From Deltaproteobacteria bacterium (GTDB taxonomy: Bacteria; Myxococcota_A; Polyangia; JAAYKL01): 33,409 nt of DNA. The notes below the pieces were generated by a model. It was not told the origin of the DNA and searched no databases. It saw only the letters and a program-made list of their open reading frames with translations. A program made the translations under genes and the position numbers. The stretch is from NCBI GenBank assembly GCA_016935665.1, contig JAFGQN010000092.1, positions 1 to 33,409 on the forward strand. Direction: 5' to 3'. This document shows positions 1,005-33,322 of this stretch, in pieces; the first letter of the stretch is position 1, and each line of letters begins with the position of its first letter.

Positions 1005-2864
1005 TTACTCCACGATGACCAGGCGACACGATGAAGGACAATCGTCGTTGTTTAATGTGTTACCGTCGTCGCACGCTTCGAATTCTTCCTGAACGATGCC
1101 GTCACCGCAATACGCGCCCAGCTTGCAGCCCTTGTCGCATTCCCCGTACCCGCCGTCGTTCACGCCATCGTCACATTCCTCGCCCAGGCCAATCATGCCG
1201 TCGCCGCACTCGGGGCGACATTCTGAACGCGTCATCGTGAATCCACTTAAGGTCAGCCTATAGCTGGAACCGTTGGTTTGCCGCTCGGCCTGAAAGACGA
1301 CAATCTCATACACTTTGCCATCGTCCAGTCCCAAATCATTGATGATGACTTCGCCTTCTTCCGGTGAATGGATGCCCCCGAGGTCAACCACCAGTTTATT
1401 GTTGATAAAGACCCATACATCATCATCACCAAGGAATTTAAACGTTTGGGTGGTGCTGTTATCGTACTTGAACCAGAAGCGTACCTCGCTGGTGAAATGA
1501 AAGTTGTGTTCCAGGCTGTAATCGTCGGGCAACGGGATTCGGGCGATGGTGGACGCCAATTCCTCATCGTTCCAGTATTCATCATAAGGAGGCGCGGTTC
1601 CAGCCAGAGCGTATTCAGAGACGTCGGTGATTCCCTTTCCATCCAGTGGGAAAAAGTGAGGTTCGCCATCGGTGTAGGTAACTTCTGCGCAACAGGCGGT
1701 TTTCTGTTCAACGTCCCAGCAAAAATCGTCCACACACAATCCCGGACACGCCTGACATCCCTCAGCATCACAGGAATCATTGTCACACCATTCGTATTCA
1801 TACCAGCCCCAGCGATTTCCCTCATCGTCGGCCCGGTTTACAAAGGCGCCATCTCCATTGTTAAACAGCGTAATGTAGTCGGTGACGACTGCTAAATCGT
1901 CGGCATCTGAGTTGTCGTACCATGAATCAAAATCGAATAGCGCGTCACAGGCAATGGTGTAAGGATCTGCATTTGCCACTGCGGCCACTGGCTTTCCATT
2001 GGGACCGAGTGTGTCTTTCACCATACCGGGGCTCACTTCGCCACAGTTGGTGAGGCCGGGTTCGAAATCCGGGTGCTCCGCCAGAAAATCCTTGTAAATG
2101 ACGGGAACCCTGATGGAGTCGCTGTTCGAATCGGGAATGGTGCAGGTGTAGCCTTCTTCCTGTTTGCAGTTCGCAGAACAGCCGTCGCCGTCCACATTGT
2201 TGCCGTCGTCGCATTCCTCGTCGATGACCACTCCGTCACCGCAACTGGAGGTGCAATTGCCGCCATCTTTGCAAACGGGTTCCAACTGACACTGGGCGTT
2301 GCATCCGTCGAACGGCATGCTGTTGCCGTCATCGCATCCTTCGGCGCCTTCAATCTTATTGTCGCCACAATCCGCCTCGGTGCAGACACTGGGGGATTCC
2401 TCGGTGCATTTATAACCAATTTCAATCATGCACAAATCGTTGCAACCATCGCCTCTATCCATATTCCCGTCGTCACACAGTTCCGGTTTTGATAACTGGC
2501 CATCGCCGCATCGGGCCACCTGGTGACAGGGAAAACCGGGCGGATTGCAGGACCAGCCTTCTTCGGTCTGCCTGCAGTCGCCGGTGCACCCGTCTCCCGA
2601 TTCCGTATTGCCATCGTCGCATGCCTCAGTTTCAGCGAGCCTGCCGTCCCCACACACCGGCGGTTTATCTGCATCGCCGTCTGCATCGCTGTCTCCGTCG
2701 GCATCGCCATCACCGTCCCCATCTGCGTCCCCGTCTGTGCTGCCGCTATTGTCTCCATCGTGACGCCTGCCTGCGGGAGAGTCCGGGACGGATTCACAGC
2801 CAAAGGCCGGCAGGTAAGTGAGCATTAAAAGGAAGCCCCATAAATAATAAGTTATTGTTTTCAA
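1005..2864 (-). CDS. Lipoprotein with six DUF4215 (Myxococcus cysteine-rich) repeats and a fibro-slime domain
   Basis: About 619 residues. I start it at a TTG with AAAGG 9 nt upstream, because this places a signal peptide (hydrophobic GFLLMLTYLPAFG) directly at the N-terminus, ending at Cys23 as a probable lipobox. An in-frame ATG 153 nt further upstream would bury the signal. Residues 24-68 are a linker rich in Asp-Gly and Asp-Ala. Four cysteine repeats (CGDG...CDDGN...DGC...C) fill about 71-250. The fibro-slime domain spans about 251-545 (YKDFL, FKFLGDDDVWVFINNKLVVDLGG, VFQAERQTNGSSY). Two more cysteine repeats close the protein from 553. Fibro-slime domains occur in Dictyostelium, Fibrobacter and myxobacterial surface proteins and may bind carbohydrate or matrix. 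The exact ligand is unknown. Confidence 0.88.
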   Translation of the reverse strand: MKTITYYLWGFLLMLTYLPAFGCESVPDSPAGRRHDGDNSGSTDGDADGDGDGDADGDSDADGDADKPPVCGDGRLAETEACDDGNTESGDGCTGDCRQTEEGWSCNPPGFPCHQVARCGDGQLSKPELCDDGNMDRGDGCNDLCMIEIGYKCTEESPSVCTEADCGDNKIEGAEGCDDGNSMPFDGCNAQCQLEPVCKDGGNCTSSCGDGVVIDEECDDGNNVDGDGCSANCKQEEGYTCTIPDSNSDSIRVPVIYKDFLAEHPDFEPGLTNCGEVSPGMVKDTLGPNGKPVAAVANADPYTIACDALFDFDSWYDNSDADDLAVVTDYITLFNNGDGAFVNRADDEGNRWGWYEYEWCDNDSCDAEGCQACPGLCVDDFCWDVEQKTACCAEVTYTDGEPHFFPLDGKGITDVSEYALAGTAPPYDEYWNDEELASTIARIPLPDDYSLEHNFHFTSEVRFWFKYDNSTTQTFKFLGDDDVWVFINNKLVVDLGGIHSPEEGEVIINDLGLDDGKVYEIVVFQAERQTNGSSYRLTLSGFTMTRSECRPECGDGMIGLGEECDDGVNDGGYGECDKGCKLGAYCGDGIVQEEFEACDDGNTLNNDDCPSSCRLVIVE

Positions 2865-3015
2865 CGTGCTCTGCCTTTCATTGGAAACAGTGGGAATCAA
2901 CCCGCCTGTATATCGAGTATAAAACATTTCAAAGTGTATCTCCACTGGCAAAGCAGGGGCCACTTTTCCTTTATTTTTGATGTTGCTTCCTCCGGGTGCA
3001 TTCCGAAAACAACTC

Positions 3016-3043
3016 AAAAATATCCATTCGTCTGGCTATGGAT
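3016..3043 (-). terminator. Possible weak terminator downstream of glmS
   Basis: On the minus strand an ATCCAT/ATGGAT stem (3038-3043 and 3022-3027) is followed by A and five T (3020-3016), 55 nt after the glmS stop codon. The stem is only 6 bp and AT-rich, so this is a tentative call. Confidence 0.3.
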
Positions 3044-5403: not shown

Positions 5404-8367
5404 ATGAAGCACAAAATCACTATTCTAATTTCCGGCATAATTTTATTTTTACAGGGCGCAGGCGTACATGCAGAAACTGTGATTGATATAGACGGCAGCC
5501 TGAGTGACTGGGACGCCAGCGATGCGCAATGCATGTTGAACCAGACCGATCCCCAGGGCTCCGATTTTGTCGATGTGGTGCAGATTTGCGTCACAGACAG
5601 TTTTTCCAGCGACGGATATTTTTATTTGCTGATGGAATTTGTGTGGGACAAACCCAGCAGCTCCCTGAATCGGATATGGCTGCAGAATGCGGATGTTATC
5701 CTGAGTGTGGATACCAACAGTGATGGCGTTTTTGACACCGAAATCGATTTCGTGAATGACCCTGCGGAGGACGTGTACGGCATCCTGAGTTTCCCTTATC
5801 TTGAGTTGCGAATCGATTACGACCTGGTGGATCCGGATGGAGATCGGGAGTTTTCCTTTTTTATCGATACATACTGGCGCAGCAGCATTCAGGACAGAGT
5901 TCCCCTCGAAGACGGCAGTTCGGTGGATTACTCAGTGGACCCGGTTACCGGTTCGCCCCGTTCTGTTCGTATGCTGGCTCAGTCAGCCCTTGCCGGCGAT
6001 GAAGGCGTGACCGTTTCGTGGGTCACCGCGTCTGAACGCGCCAACGCCGGTTTTCATGTGTATCGCTACGATGCCTCCATGCAACGGTGGACTCGCCTGA
6101 CAGACCAGCTGATTCCTGGTCTTGGGGATGCGCCATTTGGCAGGCAATACAGTTATGTGGACAGCCAGGGATTGCCCGGAGATGTATATCTTATTCAAGA
6201 TGTGGAGTTCTCTGGAAAACGAAGGGGCAATGGAAAATTTGTGGCACGGGTGGCCACAGATCTGGTGGACGAGTACCTGCCACCAATGGTCTCCAAAACA
6301 GAACGCCCGTTCAATTTCGCAAATCGAATTCAAAAAGCCTTTGAAAAATTGCGTATTGCTTCGACCCCCAGGGGGGCATCGGAAACTTTTTTATTCCAGC
6401 TGGACGAAAAGGGGCTATATCAGATTTCAGGAGATACTCTGCGCTCATTGAATTACAATCCCCAGCGAACCGGACTGTCCATCAATGGAAAACGAATTCC
6501 CGACTTTTTTGTGGACGATAAATTATTTTTCTACGATGCCCCCATTGCCGATCGGTATGCCGACTATGACACGGTCGTCGCAGCCGAAGGTCGTCGTTCC
6601 CCGATGTCAATGAAACGCGCGCTTATTCGGAACAGATGCGATTCGCACGTGACATCTCTGCCCTATACAGAAACTTTTGAAAATGATGTCAATTACTATG
6701 TGGCGACACCGACAGATGATCCGTTCTTCTGGACGATGGTGTTTGGCAGCGCACCGGCGACAATTCCAATTCAACTAACGGATGTCGTCTCTGGCCCTGG
6801 AAAATTGACCGTTTCGCTGGTGGGATTTGCCACTGTGGCAGATGGGGATGATCATATCGCATCATTTATTCTTAATGGCCAGCCTCTGGGGGAATGGCGG
6901 TGGAATGGCAAAAATGTGGCAACTGCGGAATTTGATGTACCGGAAGGAATTTTGCGAGCGGAAAATGAGTTGGTGGTTGAGATGTCCAAAGAGCGTGGCG
7001 CCGACATGTTATCCATTGATAAAGTAACATTGACCTACGCGCGCCGGTTGGCTCTGAACGGCGGAATGCTCGAATTTACTGCTTCCCCAGGAAGCTGTGT
7101 TTCCATTCTGGTGAATGCCACAGACGTGGTGGTTCTCGATGTCACCGCCCCATCATCTCCTGTGAAACTGGAAGGCGCCGTGTCAGATGGTCGCCAGCTG
7201 CTGTTCGGAGTACCTCGTGGCCGCGATGGTAAAAAAATGCGTACATTGCTGGTGGCGAACAGCGACCAGGCACTGACGCCGGTTCCCGAACGCCATGGGA
7301 TGCCGACGCAACGGTTGAAGAATGCTGTCGGCGCACAGTACATTGTAGTGACACATCCGCTGTTTGCGGATGCGGCCGCGCAACTGGCCCAGTATCATTC
7401 TCAGGTGATGAGCACCTTTGTGGTCACAACCGAAGAACTGTATGATAAATATAATGGTGGGCGCCCCCATCCGGGTGCCATTCGCCAATTCCTGCTGGAT
7501 GTGGCGAATGCGGATAGAAGTGCATTGCAATACGTACTGCTGCTGGGGAGCGCCACTGTGGACAGTAATGATGTAATGGGAATCGGCGATGAAGACTATG
7601 TGCCCACCTACTACTATCGAACCAATCTGATGGGGTATGAGGCCGCAGCGGATACGGTTTTTGTTGCGGGTCTTTCGGATGTTGCGCTGGGGCGGCTGGC
7701 GGTGCGAAACATAAACGAAGCAAATGTCGTGGTGGACAAATTGATTTCCTGGTACGAGACGGATGCACCCGCAAAAGCCAATAGTGTGTTCATTGCCGAC
7801 CGTGAAGATGGCAGTGGCCGATCTTTTGTTGATGATATGAATGCGCAAATAGCAGCGGGCGGACCATTTTCAGACCATGCGGAACGTATCGTTCTGGATG
7901 ACGTCCAGAGACCTTCGGACGCCCTCTACTCTCTGCTGCAAAAAGGCGCGGATTTCCTCAATTATCACGGGCATGCATACGTCAGCGGCTGGTCGAGTCC
8001 AGAGATTGCCAATCTGGGCGTGGCAAATCGCCTGCAAAACAGTCATCTCTTTTTTGTGATGTCCTGGTCCTGTTTCGATGGCATGTTCTCCGGACCATGG
8101 GACGAAGCGCTGGCATGGCAGTTTGTGGCGAATCCATCCGCCGGGGCATTTGGCGCACTGGCCGGTTCAAGTTTGTCCGATCCAGCATTTGTCGAAGAAT
8201 TTGCTTTGATGGTAACAAAAGAGCTGGCATCCGGCGTTCCAACAATGGGTGAGGCGGTCGTGATTGCCCGCCGTCAAATGGCTCAGCATTTGAGTAAGGG
8301 CGCGATGGATACTATTTATACCTACAATCTGCTTGCGGACCCCGCAGCCCCCAATCCGTGGTACTGA
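5404..8367 (+). CDS. Secreted gingipain-type cysteine peptidase (C25 family), multidomain
   Basis: 987 residues. An N-terminal signal peptide (hydrophobic ITILISGIILFLQGAGVHA, cleavage near residue 24) is followed by a domain starting IDIDGSLSDW that resembles CBM9-like beta-sandwiches, and by an FN3-like region with VTVSWVTASE near residue 206. The peptidase C25 domain occupies roughly 640-985. The catalytic pair is intact: His857 in NYHGHAYV aligns with the gingipain His block and Cys890 in MSWSCFDG with the nucleophile block. It should cleave proteins outside the cytoplasm; specificity cannot be read from sequence. I see no recognisable type IX secretion C-terminal sorting domain after the peptidase domain; the protein ends LADPAAPNPWY. 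The ATG has only a weak upstream GGGG, about 12 nt away. Confidence 0.88.
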   Translation: MKHKITILISGIILFLQGAGVHAETVIDIDGSLSDWDASDAQCMLNQTDPQGSDFVDVVQICVTDSFSSDGYFYLLMEFVWDKPSSSLNRIWLQNADVILSVDTNSDGVFDTEIDFVNDPAEDVYGILSFPYLELRIDYDLVDPDGDREFSFFIDTYWRSSIQDRVPLEDGSSVDYSVDPVTGSPRSVRMLAQSALAGDEGVTVSWVTASERANAGFHVYRYDASMQRWTRLTDQLIPGLGDAPFGRQYSYVDSQGLPGDVYLIQDVEFSGKRRGNGKFVARVATDLVDEYLPPMVSKTERPFNFANRIQKAFEKLRIASTPRGASETFLFQLDEKGLYQISGDTLRSLNYNPQRTGLSINGKRIPDFFVDDKLFFYDAPIADRYADYDTVVAAEGRRSPMSMKRALIRNRCDSHVTSLPYTETFENDVNYYVATPTDDPFFWTMVFGSAPATIPIQLTDVVSGPGKLTVSLVGFATVADGDDHIASFILNGQPLGEWRWNGKNVATAEFDVPEGILRAENELVVEMSKERGADMLSIDKVTLTYARRLALNGGMLEFTASPGSCVSILVNATDVVVLDVTAPSSPVKLEGAVSDGRQLLFGVPRGRDGKKMRTLLVANSDQALTPVPERHGMPTQRLKNAVGAQYIVVTHPLFADAAAQLAQYHSQVMSTFVVTTEELYDKYNGGRPHPGAIRQFLLDVANADRSALQYVLLLGSATVDSNDVMGIGDEDYVPTYYYRTNLMGYEAAADTVFVAGLSDVALGRLAVRNINEANVVVDKLISWYETDAPAKANSVFIADREDGSGRSFVDDMNAQIAAGGPFSDHAERIVLDDVQRPSDALYSLLQKGADFLNYHGHAYVSGWSSPEIANLGVANRLQNSHLFFVMSWSCFDGMFSGPWDEALAWQFVANPSAGAFGALAGSSLSDPAFVEEFALMVTKELASGVPTMGEAVVIARRQMAQHLSKGAMDTIYTYNLLADPAAPNPWY

Positions 8368-24584: not shown

Positions 24585-24794
24585 ATGTCATTATTTCCGA
24601 TGCTCGGAATGCCTGGAGCCACAGAGTTGTTAATCATCGCCGGAGTGATTGTTTTGATTTTTGGCGCAGCGAAATTGCCGAAACTGGGAAAAGGGCTGGG
24701 CGAGGGAATCCGCAATTTTAAAGATGGTTTAAAAGGCGGAGATGAGAAATCTTCAGATTCCACCGATTCCAAACCACCAAAGCTGGATGAATAG
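24585..24794 (+). CDS. tatA: Twin-arginine translocase subunit TatA
   Basis: 69 residues from the ATG with AGGGAGG about 8 nt upstream. TatA forms the pore through which folded proteins cross the inner membrane. It has the typical short N-terminus, one membrane helix (ATELLIIAGVIVLIF), the FGAAKLPKLGKGLG hinge and amphipathic helix, and a charged Ser/Asp/Lys tail ending SKPPKLDE. There is no tatB or tatC nearby. Length and the FGA-LP motif favour TatA over TatB. Confidence 0.92.
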   Translation: MSLFPMLGMPGATELLIIAGVIVLIFGAAKLPKLGKGLGEGIRNFKDGLKGGDEKSSDSTDSKPPKLDE

Positions 24795-26058: not shown

Positions 26059-26409
26059 CTTTTTGCGTAATAAATTTCCTGTTCGCGATCAGATTTAATT
26101 AGTTCGTAATTTTCTTAAAAAAAATTACATTTTTACTGACAGCCGTTGCCTACATCCAGCGAAAGTTGTGCTGTACTCGGATTATTTCGGTCTGCATAAA
26201 AGAAATGTCTGATTTTCTTCATGAAAATGACACGTGCGAGGAATTACTTCTCCCTTTTTTTGACTGGGATGGCACTATATCGGCGACTTTGGATTTGAGG
26301 CTTTTATCTGTTTTGAGCTTCTGTCAAATTTCATTTTCACTATAGTCTATTGGGGGGTGAAATGAAGATGGCAACTTGCATGAGTTGCATTGATGCAAGG
26401 ACGGGCTGC
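26059..26409. promoter_or_regulatory. AT-rich intergenic region upstream of the porin gene
   Basis: No gene is seen in these 351 nt. It contains a likely AT-rich terminator at 26106-26134, a possible -10 box TATAGT at 26341-26346 with no good -35, and a short ORF start (ATG 26362 after GGGGGGTG) that is in frame with the porin. A 7-bp hairpin CTTGCAT/ATGCAAG (26375-26381 and 26393-26399) lies directly before the chosen porin start and overlaps its ribosome site AAGGA (26397-26401). Confidence 0.5.
26106..26134 (+). terminator. Possible AT-rich terminator after the aminotransferase gene
   Basis: A perfect 8-bp inverted repeat GTAATTTT / AAAATTAC with a 7-nt loop is followed by ATTTTT, 48 nt after the aminotransferase stop. 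The stem has only two G-C pairs, so its stability is low. The location, before a long gene-free stretch and a new operon, supports it. Confidence 0.35.
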
Positions 26410-27831
26410 ATGGGAATAAAGAACGGGTTTCGATTTTTGAGTGTTGTGTTTCTGGTATATACGACACATTTGGGGGCTCAGGAAATTGACAATCAGCCGC
26501 AGAATGATACGGCGGGGGCGCGACTGGAAATCGGTGCTGAGGGGGTATCCGCGGACGGCCTCGAAGAGGACGCCGAGAGTGAAGAGAATGGAGCCGAGGG
26601 CGACAAGGATGGGGAGAAGGGCAAAAAGAAGAAAAAAAAGGTTCAAAATGATGCGCCGCGCTTCATAAAAAAGCTCTCCAATAAATCCAAACGCGAAATT
26701 AAAGGCCGCGTTTTCGCCTATTACCAATTCTCAGACCGGGAAGGAAAGCACAACCGACTCGTGCTGGATGTGGCGCGGTTGAATCTTGCGTGGCGATATG
26801 GTCGCGTTGCAGAGGCCGTCCTGAAATACGATTTTGCCGGACTGGTTAGGAATGAGGAAATAAAAGATGGATTGCGCGATGCGTATGTACGGATTGAGCC
26901 GGCGAAGTTTTTTGGTCTTCAGATGGGACAGTTTAAAAAGCCATTCAGCCGAATTGAGCTCACATCCCGAGGAAAACTGTCTGCGTTTTCGCGGGGGGCG
27001 GCCAATAGTTACGCGGTGGGCTTTCTCGGTTTCGGAGATCGGGATTTGGGACTGATGGTTAGCGGTCGATTGATTAAGCACATCAAACTCGATTATTTCG
27101 CGGGGATTTTTAACGGTGTGGCGGAGAACGGGATTGACGTGAAATCCTCCAGTTTTGACTACACATTCCGGCTGGAAGCGAGCCCGGCAAAATGGCTGGA
27201 ACTGGGGGCGGCGGCATCGGCGCATCGGGTCACAAAGAACGATTTCGGTGAGTTTTTTGATGCCTCCGAGTACGAGGAGTTGGATGACAACGATTTCCCC
27301 GACTGGATAAATCCGGATGAACGTTTAGTGTTTGGCAGTTATCAGGAGTATGCGCTGAAAAACTTTAAACTGGAGTATCCCTGGCTCTCGGGCACTCATT
27401 GGATGGGGGAGGTGGATGCCGAACTGGAGTTTGGTGATTTTTGTGCGCTGATTGAGTTCATGGGCGGTCAGAACTGGTGGTTTAAGTATTCGCCCTGGCT
27501 TTGGAGCATCACAACACTATTCAGTTATAAAATCCCCCTGTTTGATGGCGTCATGGCCGTGGAGCCGGTGTTCTTTGCAGAATTATTGAATATCAGTGAT
27601 GACGACTGGGCCTGGCGGGCGCGGATGCTGCAATTGTCGCCAGGGGTAAATGTGCATTTTGGAGATGATTTCAGGTTGATGGTGCATGGACAGATCACCC
27701 GGACGAAGCCCGGCAGTGACGCGGAAGATGAAATAAATGAGGCGGGGCTGGCGGGCTTTTGGCCCGGGGAGTGGCCCGGCAGTTTTGAATCCGCCAATGC
27801 GATTTACATCCAGCTGGGATTTGCGAACTGA
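26410..27831 (+). CDS. Phosphate-selective-type porin (OprO/OprP family)
   Basis: 473 residues from the ATG at 26410, chosen because it starts a compact signal peptide (MGIKNGFRFLSVVFLVYTTHLGA) and has AAGGA 8 nt upstream. ATGs at 26362 and 26368 would add a Cys-rich N-terminal extension. After the signal comes a charged linker (EEDAESEENG, then KGKKKKKK), possibly coiled. The barrel follows, with alternating beta strands typical of OprP-like porins: RVFAYYQFSDREG, LNLAWRYG, VLKYDFAGL, LRDAYVRIEP, LQMGQFKKPFSRIELTSRG, FGDRDLGLMVSG, and a final aromatic strand IYIQLGFAN. It sits in the outer membrane. Selectivity for phosphate or polyphosphate is a family property, not proven here. The CotH-fusion gene follows 26 nt downstream. 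Confidence 0.8.
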   Translation: MGIKNGFRFLSVVFLVYTTHLGAQEIDNQPQNDTAGARLEIGAEGVSADGLEEDAESEENGAEGDKDGEKGKKKKKKVQNDAPRFIKKLSNKSKREIKGRVFAYYQFSDREGKHNRLVLDVARLNLAWRYGRVAEAVLKYDFAGLVRNEEIKDGLRDAYVRIEPAKFFGLQMGQFKKPFSRIELTSRGKLSAFSRGAANSYAVGFLGFGDRDLGLMVSGRLIKHIKLDYFAGIFNGVAENGIDVKSSSFDYTFRLEASPAKWLELGAAASAHRVTKNDFGEFFDASEYEELDDNDFPDWINPDERLVFGSYQEYALKNFKLEYPWLSGTHWMGEVDAELEFGDFCALIEFMGGQNWWFKYSPWLWSITTLFSYKIPLFDGVMAVEPVFFAELLNISDDDWAWRARMLQLSPGVNVHFGDDFRLMVHGQITRTKPGSDAEDEINEAGLAGFWPGEWPGSFESANAIYIQLGFAN

Positions 27832-27857
27832 AGACTTATCTCGTCGAGGAATTTTGT

Positions 27858-30833
27858 ATGGACTATTTTTGGAAAAGATTGATTCGCATGCGACTGATGT
27901 CTGCGATTATCCTCTCATTACCGGGTGTCTTTTTATGCGTTTGGTATTCCAGCAGTGCGGTGCTGAAACTGTTAAGCTATCAGACGGCGCTCGGTGAGAA
28001 AGTGGCGATGGATTTTGAGCTGTTCCAGGTGTACTTACACGACATTCTCCAACGGGATGTCAACTGGATTGTGTACAGTGACGAACCCGAAAAATCGACT
28101 ATCGATCTGTTCAATCTGAATATTTCCAAAGGGGACTTGATAACCATGTATTCGCAGGCGGATAAAGACGATGATCGTCTGTACGTTCCCGCGAGATTAT
28201 GTTTGAACTATCAGGTGCAGTGTCGCGATGTGGAGGTGCGTCTTCGCGGCAGTCGCCACTGGCATCTTTTATCCAGAAAAAAATCCCTGAAAATACGCGT
28301 CACCGATGGGAAGCCCTTTCACGGACACGAGGTGTTCAATCTGGTGAATCAGGTATCGCCCATGGTGGTGGGACAAAAAGTGATTTCGGACGTGGCCGAT
28401 GAAAATGGCGTGATGGTGCCCACGTACTCATTTGTGCGATTGCTGTTGAATGGCGAAGATTTGGGGGTGCTGCACTTTCAGGCACAGCCGGACGATTCCC
28501 TGTTCCGCCGCAAGGCCATCATGTTTTCCGATTTTTATTCCGGTGACCTGAACAAAAAAGCCGACCCGATGGCATTGTGGAATGATGTGGCGTTGTGGAA
28601 CAAAGTTACCTCTCGTTTGCACTCCAACAAGCACGATGTGCAGCGTCTGAAGGAATTTTTGCACCATATTACTCAATCGTCGTATCATGATTTTGCCCGT
28701 TACGCCCGGCAGCATGTTAACTTTGAAGCGTTTGCCGCTTTCGAAGCCATTGATGTGGTGTGTGGTATTGAACAGCATGGTTTTCGCGAAAATCAGAAAC
28801 TGTATTTCGACCCCTATATCGGCAGCTGGGTGCCGGTAGCCTGGGATTTGGCAGGGTTTAAACACAGCGGTGTGATTAATCGCGTTGAAAATCCCATTAC
28901 TATTCGACTCAAGATGATTCCGGAATACCGCGCCATGCGCAACAAGGCTGTCTGGGAACTGCTCAATGGCGACGCCAACACCAATCGCATTCGCAAGCGT
29001 GCTCGAAAACAGCTGGAGAAAATTATTCCGGAACTCACCAATGACAGACTCTTTTCGGCGTACAAACTGCTGCCGAAAGTGAATGAATTTGCGTTTAAAA
29101 TGTTGCGCCCCATGGACATGGACAAACTGAATCTGGTGCTTGAATCGGAGATGTTGTCCTATGAACGCCGTCATGCATTTTTGCTCAATCAGCTTCAAAA
29201 AAACGAGTTTTATTATCAGCGCGGCGCGACAATGGAAGTTGCGCCCACACCAGTTGAGCCTGTATCTGCCGAGCCATCTGACTCAGATGTCACGGAAAGT
29301 GGCGAATTATCGGCGGGGGATACCGCCGCTTCTGATGCCTCGGTAGACGTCGCAAATGGCGAGACTGCTGAAGAAGATGCGCCAAAACCGGAAGCAGGCG
29401 TTTTATACCGCACGCCACTGGACATTATTGTGGCTGGCGAGACAGGCGTGACGTTAAGAGATATTTCGGTGGCGTTCGATACAGACTGCTGGCATCCCGT
29501 CTGGAAGATACTGATGGGGAATACGGTGGTTGCAACCGCAGACAAATCCACCTCGGCAACGTTTACCTTTGATGAAACTCTCTATGCGGCAGTGGCATTG
29601 ACTGAGCGAATGAAGGGGGATGCGGATTTGACGCGAATCGAGGTGGCAACCGTTCCAACCAGTTATCCGTTAATGATGGAATCCAGTTGCAAACCAGGCA
29701 ATGTGGATATTTTTGCCACCCATGAAATAACCCAAAATCGGATTCGGGCACAGAAACCGGACGCAGAAGTACTGGCGATGCTGCCTAAAACCTTTCCATC
29801 TGAACAGGACGTGCCGCAATTCAGTGTTGGTGTTCTGAGTCCCCATCCCCAAACAATGACCACGCCTGAGATTAAACAGATTCAATTGGGGCCGGGGATT
29901 GTCAAAGTGGTCAAAACACGCGTTTTCAACGAATATACACACGTCACCATTGCGCCGGGAACCACTTTCGAAATGGGCAACAATGTTTCCATGCTGTTTA
30001 AAGGCCAGGTGATGATGAACGGCGTCGCGGGCAACCCCATTGTGTTCAAACAAAGCGGTGAGAAGCCCTGGGGCGGCGTGGCGCTGCAGGGCCGCAACAC
30101 AGCCGGTTCGATTATATCCAATGTACAGCTGGAGGATGGGAGCAACATTGTTGGTCAGCCTGTTGTATATACATCCATGCTGAACCTCCACAATAGTGAG
30201 AATATAATTGTGCAGGGGTGCAAAATCCGCAACAACCATGGGCTTTGGGATGCCTTCCACGGAGCGTATGTGAAAAACCTGAAGATTGCTGATCTGACTG
30301 TGGAAAATGTGACGATGGACGCAGTGGATATTGAATTTTGTACGGCGGATATCACGCGGTTGTTTGTGAGGAAAACCGGCGACGATGGGTTGGATTTGAT
30401 GGATTCCGAGGTTCGGTTCAGCGATAGCGTGATCATTGGATGCAAACAGCACGGCATCTCCGCAGGAGAGAACAGTTGGTTGAAAGCCACCGATTTTCTG
30501 GTGGCAAGGAACGTCAATGGCGTGTTTGGCAAGGACGCTTCGAAAATTGAGATTGGGACGGGGCTGTTGATGCGAAACGAGACCGGTGTTCGTGTCGGCA
30601 AGCCAACCGGTTTGTATAGTGGTGACGTCGAAGTTGCGGCCAGTTCGCTCTATATATTGGGGGCAAAGAAACTGGTCACTCGAGCGGACCGTAAAAAAAA
30701 TCGCCTGGATGACGGGAAGATTCTTTTCGGATTTGTGGACGACAGACCCCTGCGTCATTTCTTTTCGGACGTCATTGATATCAGTGGCCCCGAGGCCCTG
30801 GATGAGTGGCTGTCAGAGAGAGAGGTTCATTGA
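27858..30833 (+). CDS. CotH-kinase-like domain fused to a right-handed beta-helix, membrane-anchored
   Basis: 991 residues. An N-terminal membrane helix (LMSAIILSLPGVFLCVWYSSS) anchors it, so most lies outside the cytoplasm. Residues about 95-450 are CotH-like: VEVRLRGSRHWHLLSRKKSLKIRV near 125-148, AFEAIDVVCGIEQHG, ENQKLYFDP, and VPVAWDLAGF near 330. Family members with kinase activity usually show WD-x-D; here the second Asp is Ala. A Pro/Glu/Ala/Ser-rich linker (about 459-510) and a beta-sandwich-like segment lead to a beta-helix (about 690-930) with repeated short strands (VKNLKIADLTVENVTMDAVDIE, GLDLMDSEVRFSDSVIIGC). CotH of Bacillus phosphorylates spore-coat proteins. The stop overlaps the next start by 1 nt (TGATG). 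Confidence 0.85.
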   Translation: MDYFWKRLIRMRLMSAIILSLPGVFLCVWYSSSAVLKLLSYQTALGEKVAMDFELFQVYLHDILQRDVNWIVYSDEPEKSTIDLFNLNISKGDLITMYSQADKDDDRLYVPARLCLNYQVQCRDVEVRLRGSRHWHLLSRKKSLKIRVTDGKPFHGHEVFNLVNQVSPMVVGQKVISDVADENGVMVPTYSFVRLLLNGEDLGVLHFQAQPDDSLFRRKAIMFSDFYSGDLNKKADPMALWNDVALWNKVTSRLHSNKHDVQRLKEFLHHITQSSYHDFARYARQHVNFEAFAAFEAIDVVCGIEQHGFRENQKLYFDPYIGSWVPVAWDLAGFKHSGVINRVENPITIRLKMIPEYRAMRNKAVWELLNGDANTNRIRKRARKQLEKIIPELTNDRLFSAYKLLPKVNEFAFKMLRPMDMDKLNLVLESEMLSYERRHAFLLNQLQKNEFYYQRGATMEVAPTPVEPVSAEPSDSDVTESGELSAGDTAASDASVDVANGETAEEDAPKPEAGVLYRTPLDIIVAGETGVTLRDISVAFDTDCWHPVWKILMGNTVVATADKSTSATFTFDETLYAAVALTERMKGDADLTRIEVATVPTSYPLMMESSCKPGNVDIFATHEITQNRIRAQKPDAEVLAMLPKTFPSEQDVPQFSVGVLSPHPQTMTTPEIKQIQLGPGIVKVVKTRVFNEYTHVTIAPGTTFEMGNNVSMLFKGQVMMNGVAGNPIVFKQSGEKPWGGVALQGRNTAGSIISNVQLEDGSNIVGQPVVYTSMLNLHNSENIIVQGCKIRNNHGLWDAFHGAYVKNLKIADLTVENVTMDAVDIEFCTADITRLFVRKTGDDGLDLMDSEVRFSDSVIIGCKQHGISAGENSWLKATDFLVARNVNGVFGKDASKIEIGTGLLMRNETGVRVGKPTGLYSGDVEVAASSLYILGAKKLVTRADRKKNRLDDGKILFGFVDDRPLRHFFSDVIDISGPEALDEWLSEREVH

Positions 30834-31375
30834 TGAAGCAAAGGTTTTCCCCCACACCGGGCTTTTGGTTGCTGATGGGAACATCATTGGCGGTATTGAT
30901 ATTTTTTATCTGGGGATTTTCCACGCCCAGGCTGGATCGGATATGGGAATTGGAGGAAGGGTTGAAGACCGGGCGTGTGACACAGTTATCCCGGTCCGAG
31001 AAAAACACATTTTACGATGTGTTCGAGGACTACCCCGATTATCTCGAAGAACTGGCGGGACGGCGCGGAATCGATTTGATGAGCTCCAATTCCGATGGCT
31101 TGTCGTTGACGGACAAACTGGTGCTGATTCGTAAGGCTGCTTTAAGTGATTGCGGAAATTTCGTTTTGGATGTGAGCGGTGAACAATCGGAATTCCCCAT
31201 CATCTTCAGTGTTCAGGGACGCAGTTGGCAAAAAGAAGTGGAGGTGAAGGTCAGTGGGCGCAATACAGTCTTGATGCCCAAAGACGTGCTGGTTCCGGAA
31301 TTCATCGAGGTCGCTCGAAAAAATAATAATGGGCAAATCGGCAATGTCGATGTGAAAGTCAGGTTTTGTGAATAA
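30833..31375 (+). CDS. Single-pass membrane protein of the CotH-VTC-DUF4956 operon, unknown family
   Basis: 180 residues. Not recognised. One N-terminal transmembrane helix (FWLLMGTSLAVLIFFIWGF) is followed by a soluble domain of about 145 residues, presumably periplasmic. The latter half looks like beta strands (CGNFVLDVSGEQSEFPIIFSVQG, WQKEVEVKVSG, VDVKVRF). Two cysteines (in SDCGNF and at the C-terminus, RFCE) might form a disulfide. The ATG overlaps the CotH stop (TGATG) and its own stop overlaps the VTC start (TAATG), so expression is tied to both neighbours. It may bridge the CotH-fusion protein and the cytosolic VTC/DUF4956 pair. Confidence 0.82.
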   Translation: MKQRFSPTPGFWLLMGTSLAVLIFFIWGFSTPRLDRIWELEEGLKTGRVTQLSRSEKNTFYDVFEDYPDYLEELAGRRGIDLMSSNSDGLSLTDKLVLIRKAALSDCGNFVLDVSGEQSEFPIIFSVQGRSWQKEVEVKVSGRNTVLMPKDVLVPEFIEVARKNNNGQIGNVDVKVRFCE

Positions 31376-32154
31376 TGGTAATTCGACGATTCAACAGATA
31401 CGAACTCAAATATATTATTCCAATCGAGGTCCGGGATCGACTCATTGAGGACATGTTAAAAAATGTCCAACCCGATCCCTATAGTGGTATGGACGGATAT
31501 CCACTGGTGAGTCTGTATTACGATAGCCCTGATTTGGAGTGCTATTGGAACAAAATTGAGGGGATTAAATTCCGGCGCAAGTTGCGGCTGCGCATCTATC
31601 CGGCGAACCCTATCGAAACCACAACCAAAGGCATGGTGGAAATTAAGCAGCGCATCAATCGCACGGTTCAAAAAAAGCGGGTGAAGATGCCGCTGGACAT
31701 GGCGCACACCTTATGCACCACCGGTTACATGCCACCGGATTTCGAATTGGATGAGCTGGATGAGCAGGTGGTCAATGAAGTGCAGTTTATGGTGCACCGC
31801 CTGCAACTGCAACCCGCCTGCATCACCGCATATCATCGGCAGGCCTTTATGGGGTCACAATACGAGCCGGGCCTGAGAATTACATTTGATACCAATGTTA
31901 GCTATCGATGCCATGAACTGATTGTAAATGCCAATACAAATAATCATCTGTTTCTCCCGAGGGGATGGACGATTTTGGAAGTAAAAGCCAACGACAGGAT
32001 ACCTGAATGGGTAACCACGATGCTGGGAAGACATAACTGTGAACTGCGCAGAGTAAGTAAATACTGTGCCGGAATTGCCATGGACAGGATGCAGGACATG
32101 ATGCATCTGGCCATGTCGCCAATTCCTGAATTGGAAGGAAAAAACAATGGATGA
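31375..32154 (+). CDS. VTC domain protein (polyphosphate polymerase-like)
   Basis: 259 residues. The VTC domain of yeast Vtc4 makes polyphosphate from ATP inside a basic tunnel. Here the family hallmarks are RRFNRYELKYIIP at the N-terminus, LYYDSPDLECYWNKIEG, the basic strand FRRKLRLRIY, EIKQRINRTVQKKR, and the C-terminal ILEVKANDRIPEWV (a Glu-x-Lys near the domain end). No membrane segment, so cytosolic and probably held at the membrane by DUF4956. Activity of bacterial standalone VTC proteins is mostly inferred. It starts in the stop codon of the previous gene and its end overlaps the DUF4956 start by 8 nt. Confidence 0.88.
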   Translation: MVIRRFNRYELKYIIPIEVRDRLIEDMLKNVQPDPYSGMDGYPLVSLYYDSPDLECYWNKIEGIKFRRKLRLRIYPANPIETTTKGMVEIKQRINRTVQKKRVKMPLDMAHTLCTTGYMPPDFELDELDEQVVNEVQFMVHRLQLQPACITAYHRQAFMGSQYEPGLRITFDTNVSYRCHELIVNANTNNHLFLPRGWTILEVKANDRIPEWVTTMLGRHNCELRRVSKYCAGIAMDRMQDMMHLAMSPIPELEGKNNG

Positions 32155-32842
32155 ACTGCTCAAAGATGTGGAACGATTTGGAGATCTGACAGGAACTTTC
32201 ACCCTTACCGACATGTTCCTGGTAATGGGGCTGAGCTTTGTACTGGCCATGGTGGTTGGGTATATGTACAAGATAACCCACCGGGGCATTTCTTATTCGC
32301 AGACCTACGTGCACACGCTGGTGATTATGGGAACCACCATCGCATTGATTATGTTGATTGTAGGCTCCAATATTGCCCGTGCGTTCGCTTTGGTTGGCGC
32401 GCTGTCCATTGTGCGATTCAGGAACGCAATGAAAGAGACCCGCGATATCGGATTCATTTTCATGGCCATGGCGGTGGGGATGGCAGTCGGTACACGGTTC
32501 TACATGCTGGCGGTGTTCGCGACGCTACTGCTGAGTGTAATGGTTTTCATTATGTTCAAATTCAATCTGTTTGCCAAAGTAATCAACGAACGCGTTCTGC
32601 GCGTGCAAATGCCTGTCGATCGCCAGTACGAGCAGGTTCTGGAAGAACCATTTCGAAAATATCTCGAAGACTATCGACTTATATCTGTGGAAACTGTTCG
32701 CGCCGGGGTTCTGCTGGAGGTGATTTACTCCATTACCCTTAAAAAGGGGCAGGAACCCAAAGACCTGCTGGAGAGCATCCGCAAATTCAACGACAATCAG
32801 AAAGTTTCGCTGGTCCTTGGACAACAGGAAATTGATTTATAA
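32147..32842 (+). CDS. DUF4956 membrane protein
   Basis: 231 residues. Four or five transmembrane segments occupy about 20-142 (MFLVMGLSFVLAMVVGYMY, TLVIMGTTIALIMLIVG, then two more), with the family-defining loop GALSIVRFRNAMKETRDIGF between them. A cytosolic domain of about 85 residues follows (VLRVQMPVDRQY, VLLEVIYSITLKKG, SLVLGQQEIDL), which looks ferredoxin-like, alternating strand and helix. DUF4956 proteins are commonly encoded next to VTC proteins. The conserved Arg/Lys/Asp loop could be part of an ion or phosphate path, but no transport function is established to my knowledge. Last gene of the operon. Confidence 0.9.
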   Translation: MDELLKDVERFGDLTGTFTLTDMFLVMGLSFVLAMVVGYMYKITHRGISYSQTYVHTLVIMGTTIALIMLIVGSNIARAFALVGALSIVRFRNAMKETRDIGFIFMAMAVGMAVGTRFYMLAVFATLLLSVMVFIMFKFNLFAKVINERVLRVQMPVDRQYEQVLEEPFRKYLEDYRLISVETVRAGVLLEVIYSITLKKGQEPKDLLESIRKFNDNQKVSLVLGQQEIDL

Positions 32843-33022: not shown

Positions 33023-33322
33023 ATGAAAAAACAGTTGGAGACCAATGTGTTGGCAAACAATGGAAATTCATCGGATTTATCTGCTCAAATTCGGTTTAAG
33101 GAAGCCCTGCTTGAATGCGTACTTTCTCTTCAGGGAAAATTTAAAAATCGATCCGACCTGGGCTGGTTACTTTCCATAGCTGCCGGAAGCGCTGGAACTC
33201 TGATGGCGGTTTTAAATGGCAAAAAAGCACAAAATTTCAATCAAATCATTCGAGAACTGGAACAGCATATTATGCTGTTGAAAGTCGAAGAAAAATTCAT
33301 GAAATCCCGGTTTGAATCATAG
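33023..33322 (+). CDS. Small protein of unknown function
   Basis: 99 residues; GGGGTGA lies 3-5 nt before the ATG. No family recognised. It is helical: IRFKEALLECVLSLQGKF, then a weakly hydrophobic Gly/Ala stretch (LGWLLSIAAGSAGTLMAVLNG) that may be an amphipathic or membrane-associated segment, then a charged helix (FNQIIRELEQHIMLLKVEEKFM) likely to form a coiled coil. Its own promoter with an adjacent inverted repeat suggests separate regulation from the DUF4956 operon. The next gene follows 37 nt downstream and may be co-transcribed. Confidence 0.7.
   Translation: MKKQLETNVLANNGNSSDLSAQIRFKEALLECVLSLQGKFKNRSDLGWLLSIAAGSAGTLMAVLNGKKAQNFNQIIRELEQHIMLLKVEEKFMKSRFES

Follow-up and report, generated by a model that had tools for sequence, protein, structure and literature searches.

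In Gram-positive bacteria, cotH, VTC and DUF4956 genes have been described as accessory members of Pel polysaccharide loci (PMC7112168), and the same core trio, CotH-VTC-DUF4956, is found in C. perfringens NELoc-2 (PMC2879425). The operon studied here, which lies in a window of 33,409 nucleotides (the whole stretch of DNA that was analysed), shares this trio, and the VTC clade of its layout, termed type A below, groups with the VTCs of Nonomuraea and Bacillota. However, no pel or other polysaccharide synthase gene was found in the window, the operon has two extra genes, for a porin and a small anchored protein, and its CotH domain, which is joined to a beta-helix, has lost the catalytic Asp. 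The original prediction held that the trio recurs without an assigned role; the recurrence was borne out, whereas the second part needs some qualification in view of the Pel accessory description (PMC7112168).

The eukaryotic VTC complex (Vtc4 with Vtc1/Vtc3) likewise combines a VTC catalytic domain and its tunnel residues with a small polytopic membrane partner. In yeast, the complex couples synthesis to translocation via its membrane subunits. The window VTC differs in that it has no SPX domain, its partner is DUF4956 rather than a Vtc1-type domain and the system belongs to a two-membrane envelope with outer-membrane partners. Among export systems, tripartite conduits normally require an ABC-, RND- or MFS-like inner-membrane transporter (PMC8277102). 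Layout B, another arrangement found around VTC, resembles HlyD-TolC tripartite and type 1 secretion systems in its HlyD-type adaptor and TolC-type outer channel, but DUF4956/VTC stand where an ABC, RND or MFS pump would be expected; the window has neither an HlyD adaptor nor a TolC channel, and a porin is found there instead. This porin shares the Porin_O_P family and a phosphate gene context with the OprP/OprO phosphate and polyphosphate porins, yet it has no sequence match to their PDB chains, carries a lysine-rich linker and is not the Pst-linked paralogue of its own genome. The window protein also belongs to the family of the spore coat CotH kinase (PDB 5jd9, 1.1e-4), although its catalytic Asp is replaced by His307 and its WDxD site lacks the second Asp. 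No description of an outer-membrane VTC-DUF4956 system was found in the open-access literature searched.

Gene content of the operon

An ORF check confirmed five plus-strand genes at 26410-32842 with spacings of +26, -1, -1 and -8 nt, reproducing the ORFs, strand, coordinates and spacings of the original prediction, and each family was matched except for that of the small protein. The first gene (26410..27831, +) encodes a Porin_O_P outer-membrane barrel with a signal peptide (Pfam 3.5e-9, residues 122-285), and a run of six lysine codons (26623..26640, +) falls in a charged linker ahead of the barrel. An in-frame ATG at 26362, with a strong GGGGGGTGAA ahead of it, is a possible alternative to the start at 26410. 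The CotH/beta-helix protein (27858..30833, +) has an N-terminal membrane anchor (residues 13-31), a pseudokinase-like CotH domain (28236..29048, +; Pfam 3e-14), in which the His307 codon (28776..28778, +) aligns with the position of the catalytic Asp, and a right-handed beta-helix region, the best-matching part of which (30153..30512, +) scored 7.6e-5 against Beta_helix, slightly below the curated cut-off. The small protein (30833..31375, +) has an N-terminal transmembrane segment (residues 11-29) and a predicted periplasmic domain. It is followed by the putative VTC-family polyphosphate polymerase (31375..32154, +), a predicted soluble protein with a full-length domain (Pfam 1.1e-45, profile positions 1-232 of 235), and by DUF4956 (32147..32842, +; Pfam 6.3e-18), a predicted polytopic inner-membrane protein. 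Hydropathy gave no membrane segment in VTC, one N-terminal segment each in the CotH/beta-helix and small proteins, and four in DUF4956, followed by a soluble C-terminal part of ~85 aa. The upstream neighbour of the operon is an aminotransferase gene, and promoter and terminator scans of the operon were no better than shuffles. The genome (8.16 Mb, 249 contigs) has one VTC gene.

Conservation and layouts of VTC loci

Simple gene calling was used in GC-rich loci, with profile HMMs made for the present analysis. A search of 59 genomes of relatives found VTC in 19, and a VTC relative at 92 % was seen in a MAG labelled Deltaproteobacteria. The CotH/beta-helix, small protein, VTC and DUF4956 genes occurred together in 17 of the 79 VTC loci of the class, a distant look-alike (L093) being left out of this count, and a porin adjoined these four genes in 15 of the 17. 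In one of the two porin-less loci (L029) the contig stops at CotH, so the presence of a porin is not assessable; in the other (L052) it stops inside DUF4956 and the upstream side has no porin. The porin comes first in some genera and last, 3' of DUF4956, in others. The order seen in the window (porin-CotH/beta-helix-small-VTC-DUF4956) was also found in two genomes of one family from another class of the phylum. Conservation of the porin, which had been set as a check on the predicted system, therefore extends to 17 of 19 loci, two of these in the other class. As the five genes stay together across genera, families and another class, the arrangement is far beyond chance. The small protein, which has no Pfam match but whose family could be aligned, is a hallmark of type A, and members were found outside the class as well.

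Sorting of the 79 loci filed 18 rows as type A, 35 as type B and 14 as type C, with 12 loci matching none of these layouts; because the genomes are related to one another, these counts do not represent independent events. Type A is the window type, with a porin. Type B reads VTC-DUF4956-HlyD-TolC, with HlyD once or twice, and has both HlyD and TolC in 34/35 loci, DUF4956 in 33/35 and a separate CotH in 22/35. Type C has a thymidylate-kinase-like protein in all 14 loci, Porin_O_P in 10, DUF4956 in six and an Na/Pi cotransporter beside VTC in nine. These layout types cluster in the VTC tree. A chance neighbourhood was considered for the porin and rejected, since a Porin_O_P density of ~2.6 genes per genome leads to an expectation of ~0.6 % per 13 kb, compared with 15/18 type-A and 10/14 type-C loci. 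TolC was present in 34/79 VTC loci against roughly 2 % expected per 13 kb, based on a background of ~8-9 proteins per genome (two matches counted per protein).

Beyond the class, the core trio was found as VTC-DUF4956-CotH without outer-membrane genes in the monoderm Nonomuraea, as VTC-DUF4956-CotH-HEAT-glycosyltransferase in Planococcus and as GT2-CotH-VTC-DUF4956 in Pseudobutyrivibrio, and Hymenobacter has a DUF4956-TolC pair. In this sample, the trio is more widely spread than the outer parts, which occur only in didermal bacteria.

Several further proteins were observed in these neighbourhoods. The thymidylate-kinase-like protein, a fixed partner in type C, is ~560 aa long with a C-terminal repeat region (L038 9817-11493; L081 3916-5622). 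A PPDK_N protein of ~700 aa was repeatedly seen next to VTC/DUF4956 loci, whatever their layout (14 matches, such as L048 880-2904, L078 7153-9240, L133 12420-14513 and L180 4323-6443) and has a 60 % homologue elsewhere in the window genome (contig C25). A DUF3108-like protein of ~250 aa is common to types A and C (L025-L028, L040, L048, L049 and many type-C loci) and is absent from the genus of the window. In one type-B locus (L067 6890-8030), DUF4956 is split across three overlapping frames, reflecting a frameshift or assembly errors.

VTC and DUF4956

The VTC profile found yeast Vtc4 at 3.6e-23. Alignment mapping equated R8, K12, R71, E89, K91 and K100 of the window protein with Vtc4 R196, K200, R264, E279, K281 and K294, and R102, R155, R168, E202, K204 and K229 with R296, R361, R373, E426, K428 and K458. 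All 18 rows filed as type A share these 12 residues without exception, and most of the 12 do not vary in any of the 79 loci; the window VTC has all of the basic tunnel residues, the metal Glu and the equivalent of the catalytic Lys458. Basic residues lead the chain out of Vtc4, where a tripolyphosphatase has Glu (PMC4641920); in our own mapping of the four exit-path sites R8, K100 and K204 are basic, and E10 is acidic as in the tripolyphosphatases. The basic tunnel, another check set for the predicted system, is thus supported by sequence comparison through its invariant residues. Predicted models (pLDDT 29 for VTC and 42 for DUF4956, from two-row alignments) were set aside. Taken together, the window VTC appears to be a polyphosphate polymerase with intact active-site residues, and polyphosphate would be its product.

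DUF4956, which has a conserved Arg-Phe-Arg motif by alignment, is closely associated with VTC. Across 318 genomes, 96 had both, 16 VTC only, two DUF4956 only and 204 neither (Fisher 2e-61, kinship ignored), and 67/106 DUF4956 genes lay within 1.5 kb of VTC. Away from VTC, HlyD-TolC or a porin stood alongside DUF4956 in ~9/20 loci. PPDK_N-DUF4956-HlyD-TolC was found in four of them (L180, L181, L194 and L195), with CotH next in three, and a porin was alongside in L177, L183 and L196 and ~3.5 kb off in L192; L193 is an unlinked-looking type-B locus with a truncated VTC. The presence of HlyD-TolC or a porin beside VTC-less DUF4956 indicates that DUF4956 stays associated with the outer-membrane part when VTC is not there. 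A scan of 43 extra operon members turned up a single MFS transporter; ABC and RND types were absent. As layout B usually has no ABC, RND or MFS gene, DUF4956 is left in the inner-membrane slot, for which it is usually the sole polytopic candidate in that layout, and it may act as the translocator.

The CotH/beta-helix protein

In all 17 type-A CotH domains, the wDGy motif is without its catalytic Asp and the WDxD metal site is degraded, whereas canonical CotH proteins nearby mostly retain the catalytic residue. The window genome has an unusually large set of 22 CotH-family genes, of which that of the operon scores lowest. Given the loss of the Asp, the type-A proteins are probably not kinases and, as judged from their residues, probably represent a pseudokinase or binding domain, so a kinase role for CotH, as in the original prediction, was not upheld. 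An active extracytoplasmic kinase with polyphosphate as its donor was also considered and is rejected for the window protein in view of the missing Asp; for canonical CotH proteins in other layouts, the idea has its appeal.

Porin and phosphate genes

A profile of the window porin group matched no OprP/OprO chain in the PDB that could serve to place the arginine ladder; the description of the porin as OprP-type holds at the level of the Pfam family, Porin_O_P, and a stricter OprP identity is not supported by sequence. The genome has five Porin_O_P genes, including that of the window. One heads a Porin_O_P-PstSCAB-PhoU operon (L113) and one adjoins an ABC permease (L112). The other two (L110, contig C160; L111, contig C76) each form a pair with a canonical CotH gene directly 3' of the porin gene, and both pairs lack VTC and DUF4956. 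In the porin tree, types A and C intermix and are separated from the Pst-linked porin, with moderate support; as their VTCs are far apart, this indicates that the porin-VTC link was kept or re-made. Lysine clusters (≥5 K in 12 aa) before the barrel were present in 10/25 VTC-linked and 1/40 unlinked porins (p=1.5e-4), a contrast noticed post hoc with kinship ignored; a narrower region gave 0/40 for the unlinked porins.

The phosphate link gained further support from transporter genes. One type-A operon (L041/L136) encodes PPDK_N, porin, DUF47, PiT (PHO4), CotH/beta-helix, small protein, VTC and DUF4956 on one strand, which adds to the Na/Pi cotransporter of 9/14 type-C loci. A PiT-DUF47 pair, both members assigned by similarity to the L041 pair, flanks VTC in L057, an Na/Pi cotransporter is also found beside VTC in L097, and an alkaline phosphatase gene lies 5' of VTC in L039. 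In types A and C, PiT, the Na/Pi cotransporter and the porin speak for a system that moves phosphate, in one direction or the other.

Discussion

From a comparison of ~100 related loci, we suggest that a modular machine not described before makes a phosphate polymer inside the cell and carries phosphate or the polymer across both membranes. The interchange of porin and HlyD-TolC, the phosphate transporters and the monoderm versions without an outer part point to a system for a phosphate polymer in which the outer-membrane part can be exchanged. For the window operon, we favour an envelope-spanning polyphosphate machine that threads the polymer outwards and uses the porin as its pore, a reading to which we give close to an even chance. 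Cytosolic VTC would polymerise phosphate from ATP, and the growing chain would be threaded through the DUF4956 membrane protein, with yeast VTC as a parallel. In the periplasm, the polymer may be held or guided by the membrane-anchored CotH/beta-helix protein, acting as a non-kinase, and by the small anchored protein, and the Porin_O_P barrel would form the outer-membrane pore, in the slot taken by HlyD-TolC in layout B. We infer both the outward flow and the assembly of the parts into one complex. A generalisation to all layouts, by which a VTC-DUF4956 core polymerises polyphosphate in the cytosol and exports it through both membranes, DUF4956 serving as the inner-membrane channel and either Porin_O_P or HlyD-TolC as the outer part, seems somewhat less likely than not. 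As HlyD-TolC is export machinery, it argues for export in layout B. The phosphate-polymer guess of the original prediction was sustained for its phosphate link, porin conservation and VTC tunnel residues, but not for a CotH kinase or a strict OprP porin.

Against an export machine, the phosphate importers beside the type-A and type-C porins fit uptake as well as export, and the Gram-positive relatives in polysaccharide loci suggest another cargo. The acidic E10 of VTC and the negative result of the Pho-box scan upstream also count against a polyphosphate machine. Phosphate may instead be taken up and stored, with the porin and an inner-membrane Pi transporter importing it, VTC storing polyphosphate in the cell or periplasm and DUF4956 regulating or anchoring VTC. 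PiT-DUF47 inside a type-A operon, the Na/Pi cotransporter of 9/14 type-C loci and the use of the Porin_O_P family by the Pst operon of the same genome are all consistent with this. However, a Pi importer is missing from the window operon, the genome is already served by its Porin_O_P-PstSCAB-PhoU locus, the HlyD-TolC of layout B is export machinery and no Pho box above shuffles was found upstream of the operon or of the Pst-linked porin gene, so that we regard uptake and storage as unlikely, if still a serious competitor. A role as an exopolysaccharide accessory, in which VTC and DUF4956 supply phosphate to decorate or regulate a surface polysaccharide on which the outer proteins act, would account for the Gram-positive homologues that adjoin Pel, GT2 and other polysaccharide genes (PMC7112168, PMC2879425). 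With no glycosyltransferase in the window operon, only one among the 43 scanned operon neighbours and no catalytic Asp in the type-A CotH, we consider this role improbable, even though beta-helix domains are common in polysaccharide-acting proteins.

It is more improbable again that the genes share only a promoter, with the porin and CotH/beta-helix protein forming a surface structure and VTC/DUF4956 as passengers. The two other porin-CotH pairs without VTC in the same genome are in favour, but the intermixed A and C porins, despite distant VTCs, suggest a porin-VTC link that was kept or re-made, and conservation reaches another class.

The proposed outward-threading polyphosphate machine bears on how bacteria come to have polyphosphate on or outside their surface, and on the role of DUF4956. 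If it is correct, a common core is at work in the polysaccharide loci of Gram-positive bacteria and in didermal bacteria, the latter with either of two outer-membrane parts. DUF4956 would then have a role in polymer translocation that can be tested, and the bacterial VTC would become a model for the eukaryotic complex.

Other features of the window

A TatA-like short ORF (MSLFPMLGMPGATELLIIAG...) was spotted by eye at 24586-24793 (+), immediately 5' of the aminotransferase gene, and a 99-aa ORF with one hydrophobic stretch and no Pfam match lies 3' of the operon (33023-33322, +). Two further genes of the window encode proteins that are likely to be secreted, namely a DUF4215/PA14 repeat protein (1005-3017, -) and a C25 (gingipain-family) peptidase (5404-8367, +).
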